From Sphaerochaetaceae bacterium (GTDB lineage: Bacteria; Spirochaetota; Spirochaetia; Sphaerochaetales; Sphaerochaetaceae): a stretch of 43,387 nucleotides of DNA. Position numbers and translations under genes: made by a program. The notes under the pieces are model-generated. The model did no database searches. It was given only the letters and a program-made list of their open reading frames with translations, and had not been told where the DNA came from. Positions 6,718 to 36,231 of this stretch are shown one piece after another; the stretch's first letter is position 1; each line of letters starts with the position of its first letter. The stretch is taken from NCBI GenBank assembly GCA_024684115.1, contig JAIKXP010000005.1:1-43387 (forward strand), read 5' to 3'.

Positions 6718-8661
6718 TTATTCAAGTTCAAATGCACCGGTGTACAGCTGCCAGTAGGTGCCCTTCATCTCAAGAAGCTGCTCGTGAGTGCCTCTTTCAA
6801 TGATTCTTCCATGTTCAAGAACCATGATGGCGTTGCTGTTTCTGATTGTAGAAAGGCGGTGGGCAATTACGAAGACCGTTCTGCCCTTCATAAGGTTGTC
6901 CATACCCTTCTGAACAAGAGCCTCGGTTCTTGTATCAATGGAGGAGGTGGCCTCATCCATTATGAGAACCGGCGGATTTGCAACTGCAGCCCTGGCAATG
7001 GAGATGAGCTGTCTCTGGCCCTGGGAAATTCCAGAACCGTTACCGGTAAGCATGGTGTTGTACCCATCCGGCAGACGGGAGATGAAGCTGTCTGCATTTG
7101 CAAGCTTTGCTGCTTCAATGCACTCTTCATCCGTTGCATCCAGTCGTCCATACCTAATGTTCTCAAGAACAGTACCGGTGAAGAGGTTAACCTCCTGCAG
7201 AACTATTCCGAGGGACTTTCTGAGGTCTGCCTTCCTGATCTTGTTAATATTGATTCCATCGTAGCGGATCTTTCCGTCTTCAATATCGTAGAAGCGGTTG
7301 ATGAGGTTTGTAATGGTTGTCTTACCGGCACCGGTTGAACCTACAAAGGCAATCTTCTGGCCCGGTTTTGCATACAGAGAAACATCAAAGAGAATCTGTT
7401 TGCCTTCAGTGTAGCTGAAATCCACGTTCTCCATGACAATGTCTCCCCTGAGCGGGGTGTAGGTAATACTTCCGTCTGCTGAATGCGGATGACGGAAAGC
7501 CCACTTTCCTGTCTGCTTCTCGCTCTCGATTATGTTTCCGTCCTTATCAGTATCAACGTTGACAAGGGTTACATAGCCTTCATCCTGTTCAACCTCCTGG
7601 TCAATCAGGGTAAAGATACGGGAAGCTCCTGCAAGACCCATGGTGAATGTGTTGACCTGCATGGAGAGGTTTCCGATTACCTGGCTCATGGACTTGGCCA
7701 TGGAGAGGAAGGAAACGATAATTCCGATTGAAACAGTTGAGAAACCGGAAAGGCTCAGGTTTGTAACTCCGAAGTGAACCATTAGGGTGCCGAGCAGGGC
7801 AAGGATAACATAGAGAATGTTACCCAGGTTGTTATTCACAGGTCCCAGAATGTTTCCAAGCTTGTTGGCCTTTGTGCTGTCGCTTCTAAGCTGTTCGTTG
7901 AGCCTGTCAAAATCCTCTTTGGCTTCATCCTGATGGCAGAAGACCTTAACAACCTTCTGGCCTTCCATCATTTCTTCAATAAAGCCTTCCTCGGCAGCAA
8001 TGGAGCGCTGCTGGCTTACCATGTACTTTCCTGACTTCTGGGCAACGCCTGCGGAAATCCTGACTATAAAGAACAGACCGATAATTACAGCAAGTGTGAG
8101 CCAGACGCTGTAAATAAGCATCATGGTAAACACTGAAACAATTGAGAGTGTACTTTCAATCAGGGCAGGAATACAGCGGCCTATGAGTTCACGGATAGAG
8201 TCCGTGTCATTGGTATAGGTTGACATGATCTCCCCGTGAGGGTTGGTGTCAAAATACTTTATGGGAAGCTTTTCCATCTTGCAGAACATGTCGTTTCTGA
8301 GGTTCCTCAGAGTGCCCTGAGAAACTTCAGCCATAACCAGGCTTCTGATCAGGTTTGCAGCTATTGCAGCAAGGTAGAAAACTCCCATGGTCAGAATAAT
8401 TCCAATGAAGTCTTTCCATACACTGTCCATTCCAAGGCTCATGCCCGGGACAATTACGTTATCAAGAAGACGTCTGATGGATTCTGTTGAAACAAGAGAG
8501 GCAACGGAAGCGAGGATAATACAGAAGATGACCACTATCATCTGCTTTCCGTAATCCTTTCTGACATATCCGAGAATACGCTTGAAGGTGCCCTTTTTAA
8601 TCTGCGGCTTCATACCGCCTTTTCTGTCAAATTTCATATTTCTTCCGGGTCCAGCCATCAT
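6718..8661 (-). CDS. ABC exporter half-transporter, catalytically competent subunit
   Basis: A 647-residue fused membrane-ATPase protein. Six transmembrane helices (about residues 40-345) form a type-IV exporter domain. A linker of about 40 residues follows (365-405) and then the ATPase. Walker A is GSTGAGKTT (441-449), and Walker B ends with the catalytic Glu570 (LIMDEAT). The H-loop IAHRLST is intact. The signature is the degenerate ISQGQ (545-549). It overlaps the upstream exporter gene by ATGA, so the two are translationally coupled and probably form a heterodimer of the BmrCD/LmrCD/TM287-288 kind, with this protein supplying the active-site glutamate. Substrates of such pumps include drugs, lipids and peptides; none is indicated by sequence. 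Two in-frame ATGs open the gene. Confidence 0.92.
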   Translation of the reverse strand: MMAGPGRNMKFDRKGGMKPQIKKGTFKRILGYVRKDYGKQMIVVIFCIILASVASLVSTESIRRLLDNVIVPGMSLGMDSVWKDFIGIILTMGVFYLAAIAANLIRSLVMAEVSQGTLRNLRNDMFCKMEKLPIKYFDTNPHGEIMSTYTNDTDSIRELIGRCIPALIESTLSIVSVFTMMLIYSVWLTLAVIIGLFFIVRISAGVAQKSGKYMVSQQRSIAAEEGFIEEMMEGQKVVKVFCHQDEAKEDFDRLNEQLRSDSTKANKLGNILGPVNNNLGNILYVILALLGTLMVHFGVTNLSLSGFSTVSIGIIVSFLSMAKSMSQVIGNLSMQVNTFTMGLAGASRIFTLIDQEVEQDEGYVTLVNVDTDKDGNIIESEKQTGKWAFRHPHSADGSITYTPLRGDIVMENVDFSYTEGKQILFDVSLYAKPGQKIAFVGSTGAGKTTITNLINRFYDIEDGKIRYDGININKIRKADLRKSLGIVLQEVNLFTGTVLENIRYGRLDATDEECIEAAKLANADSFISRLPDGYNTMLTGNGSGISQGQRQLISIARAAVANPPVLIMDEATSSIDTRTEALVQKGMDNLMKGRTVFVIAHRLSTIRNSNAIMVLEHGRIIERGTHEQLLEMKGTYWQLYTGAFELE

Positions 8662-10394
8662 GCACCTTCCTTTGCGTTGGTCTGAGAATCCCAGACTTCG
8701 TAGTAGATACCCTTTCTGGCTATCAGCTCTTCATGGGTTCCGGATTCGACAACCCTGCCTTCATCCATGACGATTATGGTGTCGGCTTCTTCAACGGAAG
8801 AAACCCTCTGGGCAATTATGAGCTTGGTAGTCCCCGGCAGGTAGTCGGCAAGAGTCTTTCTCAAAAGAGCATCTGTGCGTGTGTCTACAGCACTTGTTGA
8901 GTCATCGAGAATCAGAACCTTCGGCTTTGCAATCAGGGCTCTGGCAATGCACAGTCTCTGCTTCTGTCCGCCTGAAACGTTGGTTCCGCCTCTTTCAATC
9001 TTTGTCTCGTAGCCCTCAGGAAGCTGCTCTATGAACTCATGGGCCTGGGCAGCACGGCATGCAAGTTCAATCTCTTCATCAGTGGCATCTTCCTTACCCC
9101 ACCTTATGTTTTCCCTGATGGTGCCTGAGAAGAGGACATTCTTCTGAAGAACAATTGCAATCTGCTTTCTTAGTGAATCAAGGTCGTACTCCCTGACATC
9201 TGTTCCGCCAACCTTAACAGAGCCTTCGCTCACGTCGTAAAGTCTGGGGATGAGCTGGATTAGGGTACTCTTTGATGAGCCTGTGGAACCTATGATTCCA
9301 ACGGTCTGGCCGCTCTTGATATGAAGATCCACATTCTTAAGCGAATCATCTCCGCCCTGATTTCTGTATCTGAAACTGACTTTTTCAAAGTCGATGCTCC
9401 CGTCTCTGACGTCCTTTTTTCCGTTCTCAGGAGACTTGAGGCTGCTGTCAGTTTTAAGTACTTCAGTAATTCTTCTGGCTCCTTCAAGGGAGATGGAACA
9501 CATGACTACTATCATGGAGAGCATCATCATGGACATGAGGATCTGCATGCTGTAGGTCATGAAAGATGAAAGCTGGCCAGGGCTCATGTCGCTTCCGCCG
9601 GAGGAGATTATGATTCTGGCTCCGATAAAGCTGATGAGAAGTATGGCTCCGTATCCGCAGAACATCATGACAGGACCGTTGAGGGCAAGAATGCGCTCAG
9701 CAAAAGTGAAGTCCTTCTTAACGTTCTCACTGGTCTTTTTGAATTTTTCAATCTCAAAGTCCTCACGTACAAAGGACTTTACAACCCTGATTCCATTTAC
9801 GTTTTCCTGAATGGAAGCGTTCATGGCGTCGTATCTTTTGAAAATTCTCTTGAATACAGGGAAGACCGTGCGGCCAATGAGGAAGAGGGCTATTCCCAGA
9901 ACAGGTATTATTCCCATGAAAATGGTGGCAACCTGTGAGTTGATCCTGAAGCTCATGATGACTGAGAAGATAAGCATGAGAGGGCTTCTGACAGCAGTCC
10001 TGATAATCATCATGAATGCCATCTGGACGTTTGTTACGTCGGTAGTCATTCTGGTGATAAGACTTGAGGTTGAAAACTTATCAACGTCCTGAAATGAAAA
10101 GTCCTGTATGTGGTAGAAAACATCATGTCTTAAGTTTGCGGCAAAACCTGCACTGGCTGTAGCTGCGTTACGGCCTGACATGACGCCACAGAAGAGGGAG
10201 AACAGAGCCATGGCAAGCAGAATTCCTCCCAATTTCAGGAGTTCAGACATATTTTCCGTATACATGTGGTCAATGAGGGAAGCCATAATCATAGGAATTA
10301 TGCATTCCATAGCTACTTCACCAATCATGAACAACGGTGTCAGGAGTGCGTTCTTCTTGTACTGCCTGACACTATTAAATAATAGTTTTAGCAT
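8658..10394 (-). CDS. ABC exporter half-transporter, degenerate-site subunit
   Basis: A 578-residue half-transporter with six helices (about 15-310) followed by an ATPase. Walker A reads GSTGSSKST (369-377) with Ser in place of the usual last Gly. The signature VSGGQ (473-477) is canonical. Walker B ends in Asp498 instead of Glu (LILDDST), and the H-loop His is Gln529 (IIAQR). The partner at 6718 has the opposite pattern, so the dimer should have one active and one degenerate ATP site, a known property of heterodimeric exporters. No Shine-Dalgarno site is visible; TAAATT ends 7 nt before the ATG. It is transcribed divergently from the AAGDPIM lipoprotein gene across 170 bp. Confidence 0.92.
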   Translation of the reverse strand: MLKLLFNSVRQYKKNALLTPLFMIGEVAMECIIPMIMASLIDHMYTENMSELLKLGGILLAMALFSLFCGVMSGRNAATASAGFAANLRHDVFYHIQDFSFQDVDKFSTSSLITRMTTDVTNVQMAFMMIIRTAVRSPLMLIFSVIMSFRINSQVATIFMGIIPVLGIALFLIGRTVFPVFKRIFKRYDAMNASIQENVNGIRVVKSFVREDFEIEKFKKTSENVKKDFTFAERILALNGPVMMFCGYGAILLISFIGARIIISSGGSDMSPGQLSSFMTYSMQILMSMMMLSMIVVMCSISLEGARRITEVLKTDSSLKSPENGKKDVRDGSIDFEKVSFRYRNQGGDDSLKNVDLHIKSGQTVGIIGSTGSSKSTLIQLIPRLYDVSEGSVKVGGTDVREYDLDSLRKQIAIVLQKNVLFSGTIRENIRWGKEDATDEEIELACRAAQAHEFIEQLPEGYETKIERGGTNVSGGQKQRLCIARALIAKPKVLILDDSTSAVDTRTDALLRKTLADYLPGTTKLIIAQRVSSVEEADTIIVMDEGRVVESGTHEELIARKGIYYEVWDSQTNAKEGA

Positions 10395-10536: not shown

Positions 10537-10564
10537 CCTGAATATGTCGGAAGGAGGCTTGAAA

Positions 10565-10909
10565 ATGAGTAAAAACAAGTTATTGATCTTCATCTGTGTG
10601 GTGCTTCTGGCTTTACTCTGCTCATGCGCCGCAGCTCAGCAGCAGATTGCTGCCGTCAATCAGGCTAAGGTAGCTTCTGTGAATATTGCACCGATCAAGT
10701 TTGCCGGAGATCCGATCATGAGAAATGCAGCCGGAGACCCGATCATGCTTCAGGGTAAGTTCACAGCGGCAGGAGACCCGATCATGCTCACAACCCTCAA
10801 AACAGCAGCAGGGGACCCGATCATGATGGACATAAAGGGTAACTATTATATCCTCAACGCAGCCGGAGATCCTATCATGGTAACCGCTGCAGGCGACCCG
10901 ATCATGTAA
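10565..10909 (+). CDS. Small lipoprotein with six AAGDPIM repeats
   Basis: A 114-residue protein of no family I recognise. The N-terminus is a lipoprotein signal: MSKNK, a hydrophobic run LLIFICVVLLALL, then a lipobox-like LCSC, so Cys21 would be lipidated. A short Ala/Gln-rich linker follows. From about residue 46 to the last residue the chain is six copies of (F/A)AGDPIM, separated by spacers of 2, 6, 6, 11 and 2 residues. The last copy is the C-terminus. Codons for Ala, Gly, Asp and Pro vary between copies, so the repeats are kept at the protein level. AAGGAGG lies 7 nt before this ATG. An in-frame ATG at 10544 would add seven residues and could be used from a leaderless mRNA. The stop overlaps the convergent HAD gene by 8 bp. 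Surface ligand, metal site or repeated-core peptide are all possible; function is unknown. Confidence 0.8.
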   Translation: MSKNKLLIFICVVLLALLCSCAAAQQQIAAVNQAKVASVNIAPIKFAGDPIMRNAAGDPIMLQGKFTAAGDPIMLTTLKTAAGDPIMMDIKGNYYILNAAGDPIMVTAAGDPIM

Positions 10910-11711
10910 TAAACTTTTCTATTATTTCTGATACGCCTGCCTGGTTGTTGTCTTTCTCAGTAATGTAGTCTGCAGCCTGTTTTGCCCCGCTTGTGGCATT
11001 TAACATGGCGCAGCCCGTGCCGGCGGCTCTGATCATGTCTATATCGTTGTCATGGTCGCCGGCAGCTATCGTATCTTTTATATCTACTCCAAGAAGTTTT
11101 GCCATCTTCTCCAGGGCGCTGCCTTTGTTCAGGCCCCTGTTTACTATCTCCATAAATTCATCTCTTGAGAAATAACAGGACAGTTCATCACCCGCCCAGG
11201 AGAGAATCCAATCCCTGAGCTTTAAAAGAGGCTCCTGGCTGTGCATGTCAGCTATGAGCATTTTTACGGGAGGTTCCTGAAGGTTGTCTATGCTGTCCAG
11301 GATTCTGAATGGAATGCGCATTCTGGTACAGGCCATACGGACAATATCATTGTCACAGCGTTTTTCTACGAGAACCTCGTTGTCATTGTAGGTCTGTATG
11401 TGTATGCCGCGTCTTTCGGCCTCATGAAAGACCTTTCTCACTGTTTCAAGCTTTAGGGGAGAGCGGTAGATTACCTTGCTGTTGAATGTGTCGTACAGGA
11501 CACCTCCATTGTAGGAGATTATGTAGCTGCCCCTGCCGGTCAGGCCAAGATCTTCAGCCATCATGACTGCACTGTGAAGCGGACGGCCGGTTGCCAGGAT
11601 TACGAAGTGGCCTTTTTCAAGCATTTTTCTGATAGAAGCCGTGTTCTGCTCCGGGATGGTTCTGTCATCTGCAAGTAGCGTGCCGTCAATATCAAGAAAT
11701 AATGCCTTCAT
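10902..11711 (-). CDS. Cof-type HAD phosphatase
   Basis: A 269-residue member of the HAD-IIB (Cof) group. Motif I is MKALFLDIDGTLLADD at the start, followed by ILATGRP (motif II), then a beta-alpha cap, and IAAGDHDNDIDMI (motif IV) near the C-terminus. These enzymes dephosphorylate sugar phosphates or flavin and pyridoxal phosphates. The substrate is not evident. The open frame extends to a TTG at 11738, but the ATG at 11711 is preferred because it begins directly before motif I and follows AGAGG at 5 nt. That ribosome site lies inside a hairpin (11716-11733). The stop overlaps the lipoprotein gene. It follows the ascorbate minus-strand operon but is separated from its HPr gene by 81 bp. Confidence 0.88.
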   Translation of the reverse strand: MKALFLDIDGTLLADDRTIPEQNTASIRKMLEKGHFVILATGRPLHSAVMMAEDLGLTGRGSYIISYNGGVLYDTFNSKVIYRSPLKLETVRKVFHEAERRGIHIQTYNDNEVLVEKRCDNDIVRMACTRMRIPFRILDSIDNLQEPPVKMLIADMHSQEPLLKLRDWILSWAGDELSCYFSRDEFMEIVNRGLNKGSALEKMAKLLGVDIKDTIAAGDHDNDIDMIRAAGTGCAMLNATSGAKQAADYITEKDNNQAGVSEIIEKFIT

Positions 11712-11715
11712 TCCT

Positions 11716-11733
11716 GCCTCTATAAAGAGAGGC
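11716..11733 (-). promoter_or_regulatory. Hairpin enclosing the ribosome-binding site of the Cof-type phosphatase
   Basis: Six base pairs (GCCTCT at 11716-11721 with AGAGGC at 11728-11733) around a six-base loop. In the minus-strand mRNA the arm nearer the ATG contains the AGAGG ribosome site, so folding would hide it. The structure is visible; regulation is inferred. Confidence 0.4.
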
Positions 11734-11792
11734 TGCAACTTTTACAGGAAAACCTGTTATGTCACAGCCCCTTAGTCAAAAAAATAATATAA

Positions 11793-12067: not shown

Positions 12068-12763
12068 TCAGTTCTGTCCGTAGTAGGCATTTGCGCCATG
12101 CTTACGGTAGTAGTGTTTATCCTGAAGCTCCTGAGGAGCATCTTCAACCTTAGGGTTAATCAATTCTGTTCTGTAAGCCATCTTTGCAACTTCTTCAAGA
12201 ACAACTGCGCAGTGAACTGCATCTATGGCGTTCTTTCCCCAGCAGAAAGGTCCGTGATTTTTGCAAAGTGCTGCGCTGACTGCCTCATAATCAATGTTCA
12301 GTCTTGCAAACTCATTTACAATCAGGTGTCCTGTATTTTCTTCATAGGCATCTGCAATCTCTTCCTTATTCAGGCATCTGAGGCAGGGAACTGGACCGTA
12401 GAAATAATCTGCATGGGTCGTCCCGTAGCAGGGAATGCTTCTTCCGCTCTGAGCCCAGCTTGTTGCGTATGAAGAGTGGGTGTGTACAACTCCGCCAATA
12501 TTCGGGAAGGCCTTGTAAAGCTCCACATGTGTAGGTGTGTCTGAAGAAGGCTTGTAATGACCCTCTACAACCTTTCCGTTAAGGTCTACTACAACCATGT
12601 CCCCGGCCTTCATCACTTCGTAATCAACTCCACTGGGTTTGATTACAAACAGTCCGCTCTCTCTGTCGATTGCTGATACATTTCCCCATGTGAATGTTAC
12701 CAGACCATAGTGCGGTAAAAGCATATTTGCTTCGTATACTTCTTTTTTTAGCTGTTCAAGCAT
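12068..12763 (-). CDS. ulaF: L-ribulose-5-phosphate 4-epimerase
   Basis: A 231-residue class II aldolase-type epimerase converting L-ribulose 5-phosphate to D-xylulose 5-phosphate, the last step of L-ascorbate breakdown. The zinc ligands His94, His96 and His170 (VVHTHSS and CKNHG), Asp75 (SSDTPTH) and Asp119 (THADY) all match the AraD/UlaF active site within one residue. The phosphate-binding region TWGNVSAID is present. The length equals the family norm. The start is 3 bp after ulaE, and context (ulaE, ulaG and divergent ulaCAB) favours UlaF over the arabinose enzyme AraD. It may serve both pathways. Confidence 0.93.
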
Positions 12764-12766
12764 GTG

Positions 12767-13633
12767 TCAGTCCTCCAGTTCTTTTGCCGCTGCTTCAATC
12801 TTTGCTCTCAGGAAGGCAGAGGCATCTGTAATGGTTTTTATGTAATCCTGTCCCTTCTGGTACCAGAACTCGCCGGTAAAGATTCTTACCCCCATGGAGA
12901 GAACTTCTTTAATACACCTTTCATACTCTGTATGGCCGCCTGGGTCTCCGAAGTTCATATCCCTGTATAGGCCCGGCTTTGTTTCCTTGAGGTGTGTGGC
13001 AAAAATATGGCCATGACCGGTTTTTATGTCGTTTACTACATCATGGCCGTACAGGACTGCCGCATTCTTGAGATTGCCTATATCGGGATAGACTCCGAGG
13101 TACGGAGAGCTGATCATGTTCACGTACTTCATGGATTTTTCAACTGTGTCCATAAACGGCGTTTCCATGGTCTCAAAGGCAAGAATTACTCCGCTTTCTG
13201 CTGCCATCTGTGTGCTCAGTGCAAGGTTTTCTGCAAAGTACTTCTGAGTGTCCTCATCTCCGTTTTCGTAGTACACGTCGTATCCCGCAAGCTGGATTAT
13301 GGATACTCCGCTGTAATCGGCAAAGCGGATAGCCTTCTCCATTATCTGAAGAGATTTTTTGCGGGTCTCTGCATCATGTGAGCCCATTGGGTATTTTCTG
13401 TGGCCGGAAAGACACATGGTAAGAAGGGGAGTGCCCATAACCCTTGAGAGGTTTCCAAGTTCACGTATGCGGGAACTGTCCCAGTCAAGACGATCAAGGC
13501 GGGCATCTGATTCATCAATACTTATTTCAAGGCGGTCAAAATCGCAGGAGCGGGCAATTGCAAACATTTCTGCAAAGTCCTTTCCTGCAGGTATGGCCTT
13601 TTCATACAGTCCGAGAGAGTATTCCATAATCAT
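12767..13633 (-). CDS. ulaE: L-xylulose-5-phosphate 3-epimerase
   Basis: A 288-residue TIM-barrel epimerase converting L-xylulose 5-phosphate to L-ribulose 5-phosphate. Very close to UlaE/SgbU: LGLYEKAIPAG at the start, then SIDESDARLDRLDW, CLSGHRKYPMGS, IQLAGYDVYY, YPDIGNL and THLKETKPG. The metal ligands Glu and Asp/His in these motifs are present. Two ATGs occur at the start (13633 and 13627), with GAGGA just upstream. The second has the better spacing. The gene lies 5 bp after the beta-propeller gene and 3 bp before ulaF, clearly one transcript. Confidence 0.93.
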   Translation of the reverse strand: MIMEYSLGLYEKAIPAGKDFAEMFAIARSCDFDRLEISIDESDARLDRLDWDSSRIRELGNLSRVMGTPLLTMCLSGHRKYPMGSHDAETRKKSLQIMEKAIRFADYSGVSIIQLAGYDVYYENGDEDTQKYFAENLALSTQMAAESGVILAFETMETPFMDTVEKSMKYVNMISSPYLGVYPDIGNLKNAAVLYGHDVVNDIKTGHGHIFATHLKETKPGLYRDMNFGDPGGHTEYERCIKEVLSMGVRIFTGEFWYQKGQDYIKTITDASAFLRAKIEAAAKELED

Positions 13634-13638
13634 GGTCC

Positions 13639-14691
13639 TCAGACGTGAAGCTCGTAGAGGGCAACCTCGTCAGTCTCGCGGTTTGCTGCAAAGAGCATGT
13701 GCTTATCTCCGTCTCTGTAGTACATGACGTTCGTAGGACCGGCACCCTTATCAAGTACTTCAATTACGTAGTCTTTTCCATTGTGATAAAGGACAAAGAG
13801 CTCATTGTCTTCTCTTCTGTTTCCGAGGAATGCGTACTGCTTTCCATTAAGTTCTGCTCCCCATATTGCATGGAGGAACGGCATCTTCTTCTCGGCATGG
13901 TAGATGCATCTGAAAGCTCCGTTTTCTTTTTTGTAGACTGTAAGATTCTCTCCGTGGAACGGTGAGAGTACCAGAAGTTCCTTCTCTCCGTCTCCGTCAT
14001 AGTCCTGGTAGAGCATATCGCTTGCGCAGTCTTCAATAAGAGTCTCGTACGTCCATTCGCCACCCTTCTGTGCAGGAGGAGTTACCTTGTAAACGCCGTT
14101 GTCTGTTCCAACGAGGGCGTAGTTGTATCCGTCTTCAGTGCACTTGCAGAATCCGTGGTTCTTGTACAGTCCGCTTACAAGCGGGGTGAGAACAAGCTGG
14201 TTCTCCTCTGAGTAATCACGGATGTTCTTCGGAAGTTCTGCGACCCAGATTCTTCCGGGACATGTCCAGTCATCCTTGAAGGCGTGTGCGCTCTTGAGAG
14301 TACATGCTATCAGGTAGTGTTCGCCGTTTCTCTCAAGAATTCCGAATCTATGTACGAACGGAAGGTCACAGAGCTTGTGGCAGCTCCATTTTCCGTCTGC
14401 TTCTCTTGTGTAGTAAGAGATGGTTGCTGCAGCACTGTTGTTTGGAGAGTAGAACTCTCTGGTGGCAAGAAGAACAGGGTCATTATCTGCAGTAAACGGG
14501 TACTGGCAGACTGTCATGACTCCACCCGGGCCTTCCCAGAGTGTGTCTGTCCTTTCACCCTTGAGGTTGTAGATGTAGCATGGATCTGACTTTTCAGCGG
14601 CAACAACAAGGTGTCTTTCTCCGTCGTAGTCAAACTCTGTGAGTGCATAGCACTTATTAAGATGATCAATTACTTTTTTATCAGCTTTCAT
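13639..14691 (-). CDS. Cytosolic beta-propeller-like (VCBS/FG-GAP-type) protein in the ascorbate operon
   Basis: A 350-residue protein with no signal peptide or membrane helix. It consists of repeated beta-strand units, several with the pattern Y-D-x-D-G: TEFDYDGERHLVVAAE near the start, QDYDGDGEKELLVLSP near residue 220 and YYRDGDKHMLFAANRETDEVAL at the end. The DYDGDGE segment is a typical FG-GAP/VCBS calcium-type loop, so a seven-bladed propeller is likely. I do not recognise it as any Ula protein. It lies between ulaG and ulaE, where ulaD might be expected, with 5 bp to ulaE. A catalytic role in the pathway, a sugar-acid lactonase-like role or a binding role are all possible. AAGGAAAA precedes the ATG. 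Confidence 0.75.
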   Translation of the reverse strand: MKADKKVIDHLNKCYALTEFDYDGERHLVVAAEKSDPCYIYNLKGERTDTLWEGPGGVMTVCQYPFTADNDPVLLATREFYSPNNSAAATISYYTREADGKWSCHKLCDLPFVHRFGILERNGEHYLIACTLKSAHAFKDDWTCPGRIWVAELPKNIRDYSEENQLVLTPLVSGLYKNHGFCKCTEDGYNYALVGTDNGVYKVTPPAQKGGEWTYETLIEDCASDMLYQDYDGDGEKELLVLSPFHGENLTVYKKENGAFRCIYHAEKKMPFLHAIWGAELNGKQYAFLGNRREDNELFVLYHNGKDYVIEVLDKGAGPTNVMYYRDGDKHMLFAANRETDEVALYELHV

Positions 14692-14720
14692 TAGTTTTCC
14701 TTATGCTTCTAAAGGTCACA

Positions 14721-14745
14721 ATAGCCGGCTTTGAAGGCCGGCTAT
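14721..14745 (-). promoter_or_regulatory. Intercistronic stem-loop in the ascorbate operon
   Basis: A perfect 9-bp stem, ATAGCCGGC (14721-14729) with GCCGGCTAT (14737-14745), and a 7-nt loop lie between ulaG and the propeller gene. No T tract follows on the minus strand. It may protect the ulaG 3' end or give differential expression, rather than terminate fully. Confidence 0.6.
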
Positions 14746-14766
14746 CGGGGGTTTTCGAAAATGAAA

Positions 14767-15870
14767 TCAGAGCACGCTGCGGAACGGAACGTTCGGTTCG
14801 TTTTCAAAGCAGTCGTGGAATCCTCTGTCGTGGTGGTAGGCCATGCGGTCCTTGTCATCCGGATATACGTAGTGTCCGCCAACTTCCCAGAAGAACGGAT
14901 GGAACTTGTAGTCCAGGCGGTCTTTTCTCATTTCCCAGAGAACCTTTATTTCGTTTACATCTGCCTGGAAGTTTGTCCATACGTCGTGGTGGATCGGGAT
15001 AACAACCTTACAGTTGAGGGCTTCAGCCATTCTGAGAACATCTGTAGCTTCCATCTTGTCCTGTATGCCGACAGGGTTCAGGCCGTAAGCAGCTGTTGCA
15101 ACATCAATATCGTAGTCCTTGCCATGCTTTGCAAAGTAGATGGAGTAGTGTGAGTCACCGCTGTGATAGATGTTTCCACCAGGAGTTTTGATGATATAGT
15201 TGACTGCCTTCTCGTCCATGTCTGTCGGGCACTTGCCTGCCAGATCCTCGCGGTCCGGACCTGTTGAATCTGTTGTGACAATACATGTCCTGTCGAATGA
15301 ATCAACTGCAACAATCTCAAGGTCCTTGATTTTGACTACATCACCGGGCTTAACGACAATACACTGCTCTTTTGGTACGCCCCAGCTTACCCAGTAGTCA
15401 ACGCACTTCTGTGCACCGATAAAAGGAACAGGAATTTCCTTTCCGTTTGCATCAGTTGTTGTCATCTTTGTATTTACAACATGTGCAGCAAGCTCAGCAC
15501 TCATGTGGTCCTGGTGATAGTGTGTAGCCAGAACAGCATCAAGATGGTTAATCTTAAACGGATCAATTACGAAAGGAACGTTGCGGAGGTTTGGCTGCAT
15601 GGCGCGTACGCCGGCCATATTTGCCATCTGGTGGCCAACCTTCATCTTGCCGTCTCCGTGTGTGCGCTTTCCGTTACCTGCCCAGAGGTCTACTGTAATG
15701 TTTGCTCCTCCAGGGGTTTTGAACCACATGCCTACACATCCAAGCCACCACATTGCTACAGTATTTGGCTTGACATCCCAGTTTTCAATTTCTTCAGTAA
15801 GCCATGTACCCCACTCGGGGAATGTGCTCATGACCCATTTTTCTCTTGTCATCTCGCTAATCTTGCTCAT
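14767..15870 (-). CDS. ulaG: L-ascorbate-6-phosphate lactonase
   Basis: A 367-residue metallo-beta-lactamase-fold hydrolase that opens the lactone of L-ascorbate 6-phosphate to 3-keto-L-gulonate 6-phosphate. The metal motif THYHQDH gives His117, His119, Asp121 and His122. Further ligands occur in HSGDSHYS and the C-terminal [11 protein letters not shown]. The N-terminus with [14 protein letters not shown] and [12 protein letters not shown] is characteristic of UlaG. It is the first gene of the minus-strand ascorbate operon, with AAGGAG 7 nt before the ATG. It is divergent from ulaC across 280 bp containing candidate DeoR-type operators. Confidence 0.95.
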
Positions 15871-15883
15871 GTTAAACTCCTTA

Positions 15884-15926
15884 ATATCTTAAAAGATATC
15901 GAACAAAAACCGAACACTTTAGAACA
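15884..15926. promoter_or_regulatory. Candidate operator cluster upstream of ulaG
   Basis: GAACA occurs at 15901, 15912 and 15922, that is at one-turn spacing. The first two form GAACAAAAACCGAACA, which matches the reverse complement of 20182-20197 at 14 of 16 positions. Beside it is a palindrome ATATCTT-AA-AAGATAT (15884-15899) that abuts the ulaG ribosome site. Binding by the DeoR-type protein encoded at 19289 is inferred from the recurrence of the motif. Confidence 0.55.
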
Positions 15927-15967
15927 TTGGCCATCTTGGCCGATATTCTATTAGAAATCAATATAAA

Positions 15968-15996
15968 TCATAAGTTTATGAATACGCATAAGTCAA
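15968..15996 (-). promoter_or_regulatory. Candidate promoter of ulaG operon
   Basis: On the minus strand TTGACT (15996-15991) and TTATGA (15973-15968) are separated by 17 bp. The predicted start, near 15961, lies upstream of the GAACA cluster, so a bound repressor would block elongation. The -10 is imperfect. Confidence 0.4.
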
Positions 15997-16064
15997 CATA
16001 AAGTTTTTAAAAAATGTCCTAAACTTGTTTGTTTGTGTAAAAATAATATGAAATGAAAAAAATC

Positions 16065-16080
16065 AAACAAAAAACAAACA
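16065..16080. promoter_or_regulatory. Candidate operator upstream of ulaC
   Basis: AAACAAAAAACAAACA matches the ulaG-side site at 13 of 16 positions and the site at 20087-20102 at 14 of 16. It lies just before the -35 of the ulaC promoter. A weaker reverse-oriented relative, CTTGTTTGTTTGTG, is at 16024-16037. Confidence 0.45.
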
Positions 16081-16086
16081 TTATTG

Positions 16087-16115
16087 TTGCTTTGTAAATA
16101 AACCTGTTTTACTAT
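16087..16115 (+). promoter_or_regulatory. Candidate promoter of the ulaCAB operon
   Basis: TTGCTT (16087-16092) and TACTAT (16110-16115) are separated by exactly 17 bp, upstream of ulaC. The leader would be about 29 nt and contains a GGAGGAGAGG ribosome site. Confidence 0.5.
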
Positions 16116-16150
16116 GTTTACGTGAACTGCCGGAAAATGGAGGAGAGGCT

Positions 16151-16633
16151 ATGAAGGACATATTTAAAGAGATAGTAGAAAAAAAGCATTACCGTTTTAT
16201 CAGCGGAGAAAACGTAAGCTGGCAGGAAGCTGTACGTCTAAGCGCTGAGACGCTGGTAGCTGATGGATCTGTAAGTCCCGATTTTTACAAGCAGATTGTT
16301 TCCTGTATTGAGAAATACGGCCCTTATGTTGTCTTTGACTATAACGTGGCCATGCCTCATACAACAGAAAACGCCGATGGTGCCTACAAGAGCGCAATAG
16401 GCTTCATGGTTTCCGAAAAATTAATTGATTTCGGCTGCGACGAGGATGGAGAGAAGAAAGAAGCAAATCTCTTCTTTACTCTGTCTTCTGCCAGTTCTGA
16501 AGAGCATATGGAGAACATTATGGCTCTTTCTCAGTACTTCATGAATGAAGACCTTCTTAATGCTCTGAAGAAAGCAAAAAGCGGAGAAGACATTCTTGCA
16601 GCCGCTGCTGCTTATCCCTGTGAGGAAGAGTAA
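16151..16633 (+). CDS. ulaC: Ascorbate-type PTS EIIA component
   Basis: A 160-residue mannitol/fructose-type EIIA (PTS-2 EIIA domain). The phosphorylatable His lies in YNVAMPHTTEN, the usual position about 70 residues in. It accepts phosphate from HPr and passes it to UlaB. The C-terminal SASSEEHMENIMALSQYF matches the family helix. GGAGGAGAGG precedes the ATG. It heads the plus-strand operon ulaC-ulaA-ulaB. A small dyad, CGTATC/GATACG (16649-16671), lies in the 62-bp gap to ulaA and may affect relative expression. Confidence 0.9.
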   Translation: MKDIFKEIVEKKHYRFISGENVSWQEAVRLSAETLVADGSVSPDFYKQIVSCIEKYGPYVVFDYNVAMPHTTENADGAYKSAIGFMVSEKLIDFGCDEDGEKKEANLFFTLSSASSEEHMENIMALSQYFMNEDLLNALKKAKSGEDILAAAAAYPCEEE

Positions 16634-16695
16634 TTATTTGAAACTGCTCGTATCGACATATGGGAGATACGTAAAAAATACATAGGAGAAAAAGT

Positions 16696-18180
16696 ATGCA
16701 GATTCTAAACGCTATCTGGACCTTTTTTGCAACTTATATTCTGCAGAAGGCCCCTTACATGGTCGGATTTCTTACACTTTTAGGCTACTGCCTGATGGGT
16801 AAGAAATGGTACGATACGCTGGCTGGAACTCTTAAGGCTATCATTGGTATGTTAATCCTTAATGTCGGTTCCGGTGGACTGGTTAGCAACTTCCGCCCGA
16901 TTCTTGCAGGTCTTAAGGAAAGATTTAACCTCACAGCTTGTGTTATTGACCCGTACTATGGTCAGAATGCTGTTACAGCAGGTGTTGAAGAGGTCTTCGG
17001 AAAGGGCTTCTCACAGGTTATGACACTGTTGCTTATTGCATTCATTGTCAACATTCTTCTTGTTCGCTTTAACAAGCTTACAAAGTGCCGCACACTGTTC
17101 ACCACAGGTCACGTTCAGGTTCAGCAGGCTGCTACAGCTTACTGGCTCATTCTCTTTGCACTTCCGGCACTCCGCAACAACAACGTTGCTCTGATGGTTG
17201 TTATGTCAGTTATCCTCGGTGCTTACTGGGCAGTTGGATCCAACCTCACAGTTAAGCCTATGCAGGAACTCACAGACGGTGCAGGCTTCGCTATTGCCCA
17301 CCAGCAGATGTTCGGTATTCGTCTTGCTTACTGGCTCTCAGGAAAGCTCTTCGGCGGAAAGAAGGGAAAGAAGGTTAAGAAAGTCGGTGAGCTTGAAATG
17401 CCTGGCTTCTTCTCAATTTTCAATGAGAACATGGTTTGTACAGCCATCCTCATGACTGTCTTCTTCGGAATCATCATGATTGTTATCGGCAAGCCATTCT
17501 TTGTTGCAAACGGAGCTACAAAGGAATCAGAGAACTTTGCATATTACATCTTCAACACATCACTTCAGTTTGCAGTCTATCTCGCAATCCTGCAGCTTGG
17601 TGTCCGCACATTCGTTGCAGAACTTACAGCTTCCTTCCAGGGTATTGCTGATAAGCTTCTCCCATCTTCAGTTCCTGGTGTTGACTGTGCTGTATGTTAC
17701 GGTTTCGGTGACTCCAACGCTGTTACATTCGGCTTCCTCGCCGGTCTTACAGGTCAGATTCTTGCAATCGTCGCACTTATCGTTCTCGGATCTCCGACAA
17801 TCATCATCTGCGGATTCGTACCGGTATTCTTCGACAACGCAACAATCGGTCTTGTTGCTAACGAGAAGGGTGGTCTCAAGGCTTGTCTTATCATTCCGTT
17901 CTTCACAGGTATCATCCAGGTCGTTGGTGCTGCTCTGATTGCCGGTTGGGTTGGTCTTGCAAACTACGGTGGTTACCTTGGAATGTTCGACTGGGATACA
18001 GTATGGCCGCTCTTTACAGTTGTCATGCACTACCTCGGATACTTCGGTGTCGGTATCGTTGTTGTAGTTCTTCTTGCAATCCCGCAGATCGAGTACCGTA
18101 TGGACCCGAAGGGCTACTTCCTTATTACAGAGGACTATGAGAAGTATAAGGAGTACAAGGCCGGTAAGGCTTCAAAATAA
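16696..18180 (+). CDS. ulaA: PTS ascorbate transporter membrane component EIIC
   Basis: A 494-residue integral membrane protein of the UlaA (SgaT) family, which imports L-ascorbate coupled to phosphorylation. It has about eleven hydrophobic segments, starting LNAIWTFFATYILQKAPYMVGFLTLLGYCLMGKKW in two membrane-associated stretches. Typical family segments are LIGMLILNVGSGGL-like near 55-65, AFANITHGQ-like AHQQMFG near 200, and VPGVDCAVCYGFGDSNAVTFGFLAG near 330. The length is slightly above the E. coli protein. It is encoded between ulaC and ulaB. Codon use is strongly biased to a few codons, suggesting high expression. Confidence 0.93.
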   Translation: MQILNAIWTFFATYILQKAPYMVGFLTLLGYCLMGKKWYDTLAGTLKAIIGMLILNVGSGGLVSNFRPILAGLKERFNLTACVIDPYYGQNAVTAGVEEVFGKGFSQVMTLLLIAFIVNILLVRFNKLTKCRTLFTTGHVQVQQAATAYWLILFALPALRNNNVALMVVMSVILGAYWAVGSNLTVKPMQELTDGAGFAIAHQQMFGIRLAYWLSGKLFGGKKGKKVKKVGELEMPGFFSIFNENMVCTAILMTVFFGIIMIVIGKPFFVANGATKESENFAYYIFNTSLQFAVYLAILQLGVRTFVAELTASFQGIADKLLPSSVPGVDCAVCYGFGDSNAVTFGFLAGLTGQILAIVALIVLGSPTIIICGFVPVFFDNATIGLVANEKGGLKACLIIPFFTGIIQVVGAALIAGWVGLANYGGYLGMFDWDTVWPLFTVVMHYLGYFGVGIVVVVLLAIPQIEYRMDPKGYFLITEDYEKYKEYKAGKASK

Positions 18181-35475: not shown

Positions 35476-36231
35476 ATGCCCAGACCTAAAAGGTGCAGGA
35501 GAATATGCAGCTATCCTCAGTTCTGGAGCTTTGGACCGGAAGGTTCGAAGGAAACGGATGTGGTGCTGCTGAAGCTTGATGAGCTTGAAACCGTAAGACT
35601 GATTGACCATCAGAAAAAGACGCAGGAGGAATGCGCTCTTGAGATGGGAGTATCAAGGGCTACGGTTACATCAATCTATGAAAGTGCACGTTTTAAGATC
35701 TCAGATGCCCTTTTAAACGGGAAGCGCATCCACATAACCGGAGGCGCCTACCAGATAGATTCCATTCCCGACAGTGCAAAAATCAACGAAATAGGAGTCA
35801 ACATGGTTAGAATTGCAGTTACTTACGACAACGGAATGGTAGGCCAGCATTTTGGCAGAACAGAACAGTTCAAGGTTTACGATATTGATGTAGACAAGAG
35901 AGAAGTCACAGGTTCTCAGGTTGTAGATACAAACGGTGAAGGACACGGAGCACTTGCAGGTTTCCTCAGGGCAGCTGAAGTACAGATCCTCATCTGCGGC
36001 GGAATTGGAATGGGAGCAAGAGCAGGTCTTTCTCAGGTTGGAATCGAGATTCTTCCGGGAGTAAGCGGAAATGCAGATGAAGTAGTAAAAGCATTCCTTG
36101 GAGGAACACTTGAGTACGACCCGAATACAGAGTGTCACCATCATGATCATGAAGAAGGTCATCAGTGTGGCCACGGTGAGGGCCATGAATGCGGACACGG
36201 TCACGGAGAAGGCCACAGCTGCTGTCACTGA
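35476..36231 (+). CDS. DUF134 - NifX/NifB-type fusion protein with His-rich tail
   Basis: A 251-residue two-domain protein. Residues 1-95 are a DUF134 helix-turn-helix domain (MPRPKRCRRICSYPQF at the start, then the helix-turn-helix ECALEMGVSRATVTSIYESA). Residues 110-220 are a dinitrogenase iron-molybdenum cofactor-type domain (IAVTYDNGMVGQHFGRTEQF and LICGGIGMGARAGLSQ). The last 28 residues are rich in His, Cys, Gly and Glu, likely a metal-binding tail. DUF134 is DNA-binding and NifX-type domains bind metal clusters, so a metal- or cluster-responsive regulator is a fair inference. AGGAGAGG precedes the ATG. No nitrogenase genes are near. Confidence 0.88.
   Translation: MPRPKRCRRICSYPQFWSFGPEGSKETDVVLLKLDELETVRLIDHQKKTQEECALEMGVSRATVTSIYESARFKISDALLNGKRIHITGGAYQIDSIPDSAKINEIGVNMVRIAVTYDNGMVGQHFGRTEQFKVYDIDVDKREVTGSQVVDTNGEGHGALAGFLRAAEVQILICGGIGMGARAGLSQVGIEILPGVSGNADEVVKAFLGGTLEYDPNTECHHHDHEEGHQCGHGEGHECGHGHGEGHSCCH

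Follow-up and report, generated by a model that had tools for sequence, protein, structure and literature searches.

What kind of exported protein is built on six copies of one short motif, and at which level is that motif kept constant? The question is raised by a small gene in a stretch of 43,387 nucleotides (contig JAIKXP010000005.1 of the Sphaerochaetaceae bacterium assembly GCA_024684115.1), referred to here as the window. The ORF at 10565-10909 on the forward strand translates to 114 aa, in which FAGDPIM occurs once and AAGDPIM five times. This bears out the sequence-only reading, made before any database search, that six (A/F)AGDPIM copies with irregular spacers are present and that the terminal copy is the C-terminus of the protein. 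The seven-residue motifs are separated by 2, 6, 6, 11 and 2 residues, and the exact GDPIM copies follow each other at periods of 9, 13, 13, 18 and 9 residues. A degenerate DNA pattern for GDPIM, GGNGAYCCNATHATG, matches the draft genome (1.58 Mb) at 6 places, each of them inside this ORF, and the reversed control of the pattern has none in the same genome. When the mature protein was shuffled 20,000 times no 5-mer exceeded 4 copies, as against the six observed for GDPIM. The start at ATG 10565 is taken as correct, since a strong AAGGAGG lies upstream and similar purine-rich ribosome-binding sites precede the start in all seven of the spirochaete relatives described below (7/7). The N-terminus is typified by a type II signal with the lipobox LCS/C at residues 18-21, which supplies the Cys at +1. 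An antisense ORF (10625-10918, reverse strand) was rejected, as it is conserved less than the sense frame. At its 3' end the repeat gene overlaps a convergent gene for a HAD-type hydrolase (10902-11738, reverse strand) by 8 bp at the stop codons (10902-10909).

Features of the GDPIM repeat gene and its surroundings, in window coordinates
Feature	Position	Strand	Basis or remark
Ribosome-binding site AAGGAGG, 7 nt upstream of ATG	10551..10557	+	sequence; comparable purine-rich sites in relatives
Lipoprotein-type signal peptide MSKNKLLIFICVVLLALLCS	10565..10624	+	sequence; lipobox LCS/C
Mature repeat protein, Cys21 to stop	10625..10909	+	translation; AlphaFold2 repeat region
GDPIM copy 1, as FAGDPIM	10706..10720	+	degenerate DNA pattern
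GDPIM copy 2	10733..10747	+	degenerate DNA pattern
GDPIM copy 3	10772..10786	+	degenerate DNA pattern
GDPIM copy 4	10811..10825	+	degenerate DNA pattern
Diverged unit GNYYI between copies 4 and 5, in 9-residue register	10838..10852	+	interval statistics and hhalign
GDPIM copy 5	10865..10879	+	degenerate DNA pattern
GDPIM copy 6, the C-terminus	10892..10906	+	degenerate DNA pattern
Two divergent ABC half-transporter genes, outside the GDPIM system	6718..10394	-	adjacency also in L013 only

The 11-residue interval MDIKGNYYILN had earlier been counted as a spacer; its length was given correctly, but it is not a plain spacer and contains a seventh, diverged repeat unit that stays in register. Thus, hhalign aligns KGNYYI of the window protein to AGDPIM, and of 18 distinct intervals 18 residues long, 13 have a Gly at offset 9. 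The diverged in-register units of these intervals read DGKEVV, DGEQKM, DGEEIM and KGNYYI, which, judged by their residues, are typical beta-hairpin turns. This supports a hairpin reading of the repeat and at the same time implies that structure by itself does not require GDPIM. The AlphaFold2 model of the window protein, computed with eight sequences, has a pLDDT of about 81-88 across most of the repeat region and places five strands at residues 61-66, 72-79, 85-89, 94-97 and 103-106 with GD in the turns, so that the GDPIM units are predicted to fold as hairpins, the model being compatible with a meander as well as a solenoid. Foldseek searches of PDB and BFVD with this model returned no significant match, and the weak matches included propellers and OspA variants.

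Whole-genome and contig searches recovered seven distinct small exported relatives, all within one spirochaete family and distributed over three genera (g1, g9 and g14), with g1 represented by 4/4 genomes including that of the window. A sample of 393 Spirochaetota genomes contained no GDPIM carrier outside this family, its sole carrier being the window's own genome. A weak match (G153) was dropped because its locus, L082, is without a GDPI motif. Where record titles or isolate names give a source for the relatives, it is usually the rumen. Each relative retains four to seven GDPIM copies in an open frame, and the linkers LTTLKTA and MDxKGNYYILN are likewise retained; homologues without the motif or a disrupted frame, either of which had been named beforehand as grounds for abandoning the repeat, were not encountered. 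That the protein ends exactly in the repeat is true of the window protein but is not general, as L012 and L014 extend beyond the last copy. A lipobox is present in L008, L009, L012, L013 and L014; L010 and L011 possess a signal without a usable lipobox, indicating that lipidation is common but not essential.

These relatives also reveal the level at which the motif is conserved. In 10/10 pairs of five relatives, compared over a gap-free alignment across 68 residues, the GDPIM codons have a pN of 0.0 with a pS of 0.44-1.11; the linkers of the same five have a pN of 0.035-0.154. Synonymous sites are thus near saturation while the GDPIM amino acids are unchanged between close relatives, and the proposal that the motif rather than the DNA is conserved, first made from codon differences between copies, is upheld between genomes. 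The Ile codon is always ATC in the window gene, with ATT and ATA also used in the relatives, and the 39 spirochaete GDPIM copies are encoded by 27 distinct 15-mers whose codon choice is broadly like the background of the host genes.

The contig search also matched metagenome-assembled genomes (MAGs) named UBP6, which is listed as Candidatus Asafiota and comes from rumen, sludge and sediments (PMC11382960). GDPIM motifs are present in 24 of 28 UBP6 genomes, at 3 to 114 copies each, with no match to a control pattern in the same 28 genomes; all genomes in the comparison are MAGs or drafts. The ruminant-derived UBP6 mostly have a nonapeptide, AAGDPIMxx, and the others a hexapeptide, xGDPIM, in which x is A, S or Q. 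The 631 UBP6 copies are encoded by 52 distinct 15-mers, with codons broadly like the host background. Profile comparison of the spirochaete and UBP6 arrays gave 99.7% probability (E 9.7e-27), a result that, the motif being simple, concerns the repeat and not the ancestry of whole proteins. On the basis of this patchy distribution, the GDPIM module may have been transferred from rumen UBP6 to the spirochaetes.

The proteins that host the arrays in UBP6 are architecturally diverse. Among them are alpha-2-macroglobulins and ZU5 proteins that also carry Lcl_C or C-type lectin domains, as well as a NosD-type beta-helix protein, one of FGE-sulfatase type, a dockerin/PKD protein and an alpha-amylase. 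A majority of the hosts have the array within the ZU5 domain, which was found in L024, L060 and L089, among others. AlphaFold2 predicts the ZU5 domain of one UBP6 protein well, with a match to the ankyrin-type ZU5, but the nonapeptide array of this protein has a pLDDT of about 31-54 and is not resolved; the host sequences that flank the arrays suggest that these occupy beta-hairpin loops. From 110 distinct UBP6 array proteins with an upstream region, 95 pass a lipobox rule, 13 more were recognized by eye (mostly with Pro within the hydrophobic core) and 2 are without a proper start, so that all those with an intact start (108/108) are of the lipoprotein type. Other signal-bearing long ORFs of the same UBP6 loci pass the rule in 48 of 108 cases, a contrast to be read qualitatively, as the rule is home-made, paralogy is heavy and the 108 hosts are not 108 independent events.

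Several individual UBP6 loci are of interest in their own right. At L024:9572-10297 and other loci the ZU5 domain ends in an invariant GHF[ST]xYTF directly after the array. This contains HF/S, the autoproteolysis site of PIDD/NUP98-type domains, and by this analogy the ZU5 array lipoproteins of UBP6 may be self-cleaving. L096 and L112 encode bacterial alpha-2-macroglobulin lipoproteins in which the MG2 domain is preceded by one or two GDPIM units, and L074:5837-9217 an alpha-amylase lipoprotein with a GGDPIM array immediately ahead of the catalytic domain. A ZU5 paralogue at L067:9590-10312 has an array in decay, with the frame kept (GEPIM, GNPIM, GEPTM, GDQVM), and could help to show at which positions change is tolerated.

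The window protein stays below the cut-off of every Pfam and NCBIfam model, and none of the papers searched has AAGDPIM, the matches to GDPIM appearing unrelated as judged by title and abstract; the earlier statement that no known family has this motif therefore stands. We propose that GDPIM repeats, defined by at least two copies in an exported protein and by conservation at the peptide level, form a repeat family of their own, to be placed broadly with the tandem-repeat modules of exported proteins. Among potentially comparable systems, about 27 profile positions of the PGDYG family (PF14083) resemble two repeat units. However, only about a quarter of that domain is matched: the window protein scores 15.9 bits against a cut-off of 27, and the UBP6 array of L050 reaches 36.2 bits via repeated partial matches, the best stretch being profile positions 68-95 of 102, so that its score is raised only by repetition and membership was rejected. 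Bacterial surface proteins with ZU5 domains (PF00791) have been discussed as autoproteolytic surface modules (PMC3482391); most UBP6 hosts have their array inside this domain, but ZU5 does not ordinarily contain such an array and the window protein has no ZU5. The OspA-type free-standing beta sheet of spirochaete lipoproteins likewise consists of repeated hairpins in a lipoprotein, but the window protein is far smaller and motif-based, and has neither sequence relation nor significant structural match to it.

The above observations provide some clues regarding what the repeat might do. We tentatively propose, at somewhat less than even confidence, that it is an exported beta-hairpin module under sequence-specific selection, probably for multivalent binding to a partner that is either part of the envelope or extracellular. 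The gene product would be exported and stand alone, with a lipid anchor in most members, and its mature part would fold into a small beta sheet made up of seven hairpin units; in every unit A-G-D would form the turn and P-I-M would begin the next strand. UBP6 would insert the same module, as tandem arrays, into loops that lie exposed in a wide range of unrelated lipoproteins. A turn alone would not need the five core residues to be kept so strictly, while the spacing of the units is free, ranging from 6 to 24 residues, which suggests that a putative partner reads GDPIM as a sequence, with the tandem copies potentially providing multivalent binding and avidity. The invariant core, free spacing, varied host folds and lipoprotein hosts together point to sequence-specific recognition, and the window protein itself may be displayed on the surface as a putative binding protein. 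Multivalency and lipid anchoring, both anticipated by the sequence-only reading, remain plausible and the window protein has the lipobox, although this is missing in two of its relatives, as noted above.

Alternatively, the arrays might be a sorting or modification tag, by which an envelope enzyme or export machine recognizes lipoproteins for surface delivery, cross-linking or some other modification, with the spirochaete protein as a minimal substrate. Such a tag would be in keeping with arrays placed in loops of unrelated folds whatever the function of the host, always in lipoproteins, and with a core that is invariant while its spacing varies. However, GDPIM occurs in only one protein of the spirochaete, which lacks a cargo domain, two relatives are devoid of the lipobox and no enzyme gene accompanies the repeat gene; we give this explanation a rather low probability. 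The module might also be a purely structural spacer with no specific ligand. It would then be a beta-hairpin extender, compatible with itself, and would serve to lengthen loops or to build a small stable sheet. That the arrays are inserted at hairpin positions of several folds and that the diverged units are interchangeable in register are compatible with this. But many turn and strand residues would then do, and yet hundreds of copies show no variation at five residues while synonymous sites are saturated; we give the spacer the same rather low probability.

A more distant possibility is a calcium-binding beta-roll like that of the RTX nonapeptide repeats (CyaA, haemolysins, MIS38-type lipase), which have in common with the GDPIM arrays a 9-residue tandem period, export and a weak resemblance of the arrays: phmmer matches a UBP6 array to the RTX blocks of the adenylate cyclase-haemolysin at E 9.5e-6, though without the RTX signature. 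This signature was tested as GGxGxDxUx, with Gly at 1, 2 and 4 and the calcium-binding Asp at 6. In the HMMER register AGDPIM is paired with AGDDVL, placing Pro at Asp 6, and the 9-unit GDPIM profile has Ser/Thr/Ala/Asn and mostly Ala at the positions of Gly 1 and 2, so that the Gly-Gly-x-Gly-x-Asp site is absent and RTX membership was rejected. Moreover, the period is not strictly 9, since the window protein also has periods of 13 and 18 and many UBP6 genomes a period of 6, and spacings of 6, 13 and 15 residues would break a roll. Foldseek returned no RTX structure for the window model, and the GDPIM hosts are lipoproteins; an RTX-like roll is improbable.

It had also been suggested that the repeats might be cleaved-core peptides and that the neighboring ABC exporter is of a kind that commonly partners exported peptides, although the lipobox was taken to favor surface anchoring. 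A small, precursor-sized protein with repeats beside a heterodimeric ABC exporter would indeed be expected of a RiPP-like precursor that holds several cores of a secreted peptide and relies on that transporter for export or cleavage. But the exporter pair accompanies the repeat gene only in the window and L013, the other relatives occurring in four different contexts, and it was discarded as a functional partner. Across five unrelated genomic contexts the repeat gene has no common neighbor, and no gene for maturation or a modifying enzyme was found near it in any of them. Furthermore, the signal is a Sec-type lipoprotein signal, the linkers are conserved together with the motif and the same repeat occurs within large multidomain proteins, all of which render a RiPP-like precursor highly improbable. 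Least credible of all is a DNA-level repeat or selfish element translated by chance, for while many tandem copies per UBP6 genome might suggest one, it is contradicted by synonymous positions that are saturated and follow genomic codon usage, and by confinement to one frame and one strand, with the antisense ORF conserved less. A phage or plasmid origin was rejected, with 0 matches in viral contigs, plasmids and phages.

Elsewhere in the window, genes at 12068-18180 were recognized by eye as a likely set for L-ascorbate uptake and use (UlaF-, UlaE- and UlaG-like proteins and PTS IIA/IIC), inside which an unexplained 350-aa protein is encoded at 13639-14691. A DNA-binding-like protein at 35476-36231 has a His/Cys-rich C-terminal tail, HHHDHEEGHQCGHGEGHECGHGHGEGHSCCH, which is probably metal-binding.

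To return to the favored interpretation of a sequence-specific binding module, a bolder extension, which we offer as speculation with a rather small chance of being right, is that the GDPIM arrays form a phylum-wide recognition code on UBP6 lipoproteins, read by a dedicated receptor, transporter or modifying enzyme, and that rumen spirochaetes have acquired a stand-alone array that takes part in this interaction, which might then link different species of the rumen. The invariance of GDPIM over hundreds of copies, in two phyla and at least six unrelated exported folds, and in one of these phyla in lipoproteins only, points to a recognition event that has not been described. The arrays might thus offer a handle on the cell surface of the uncultured phylum UBP6, a short GDPIM peptide could be used as bait for the partner, and the motif would present a case of a repeat module common to phyla of the rumen.
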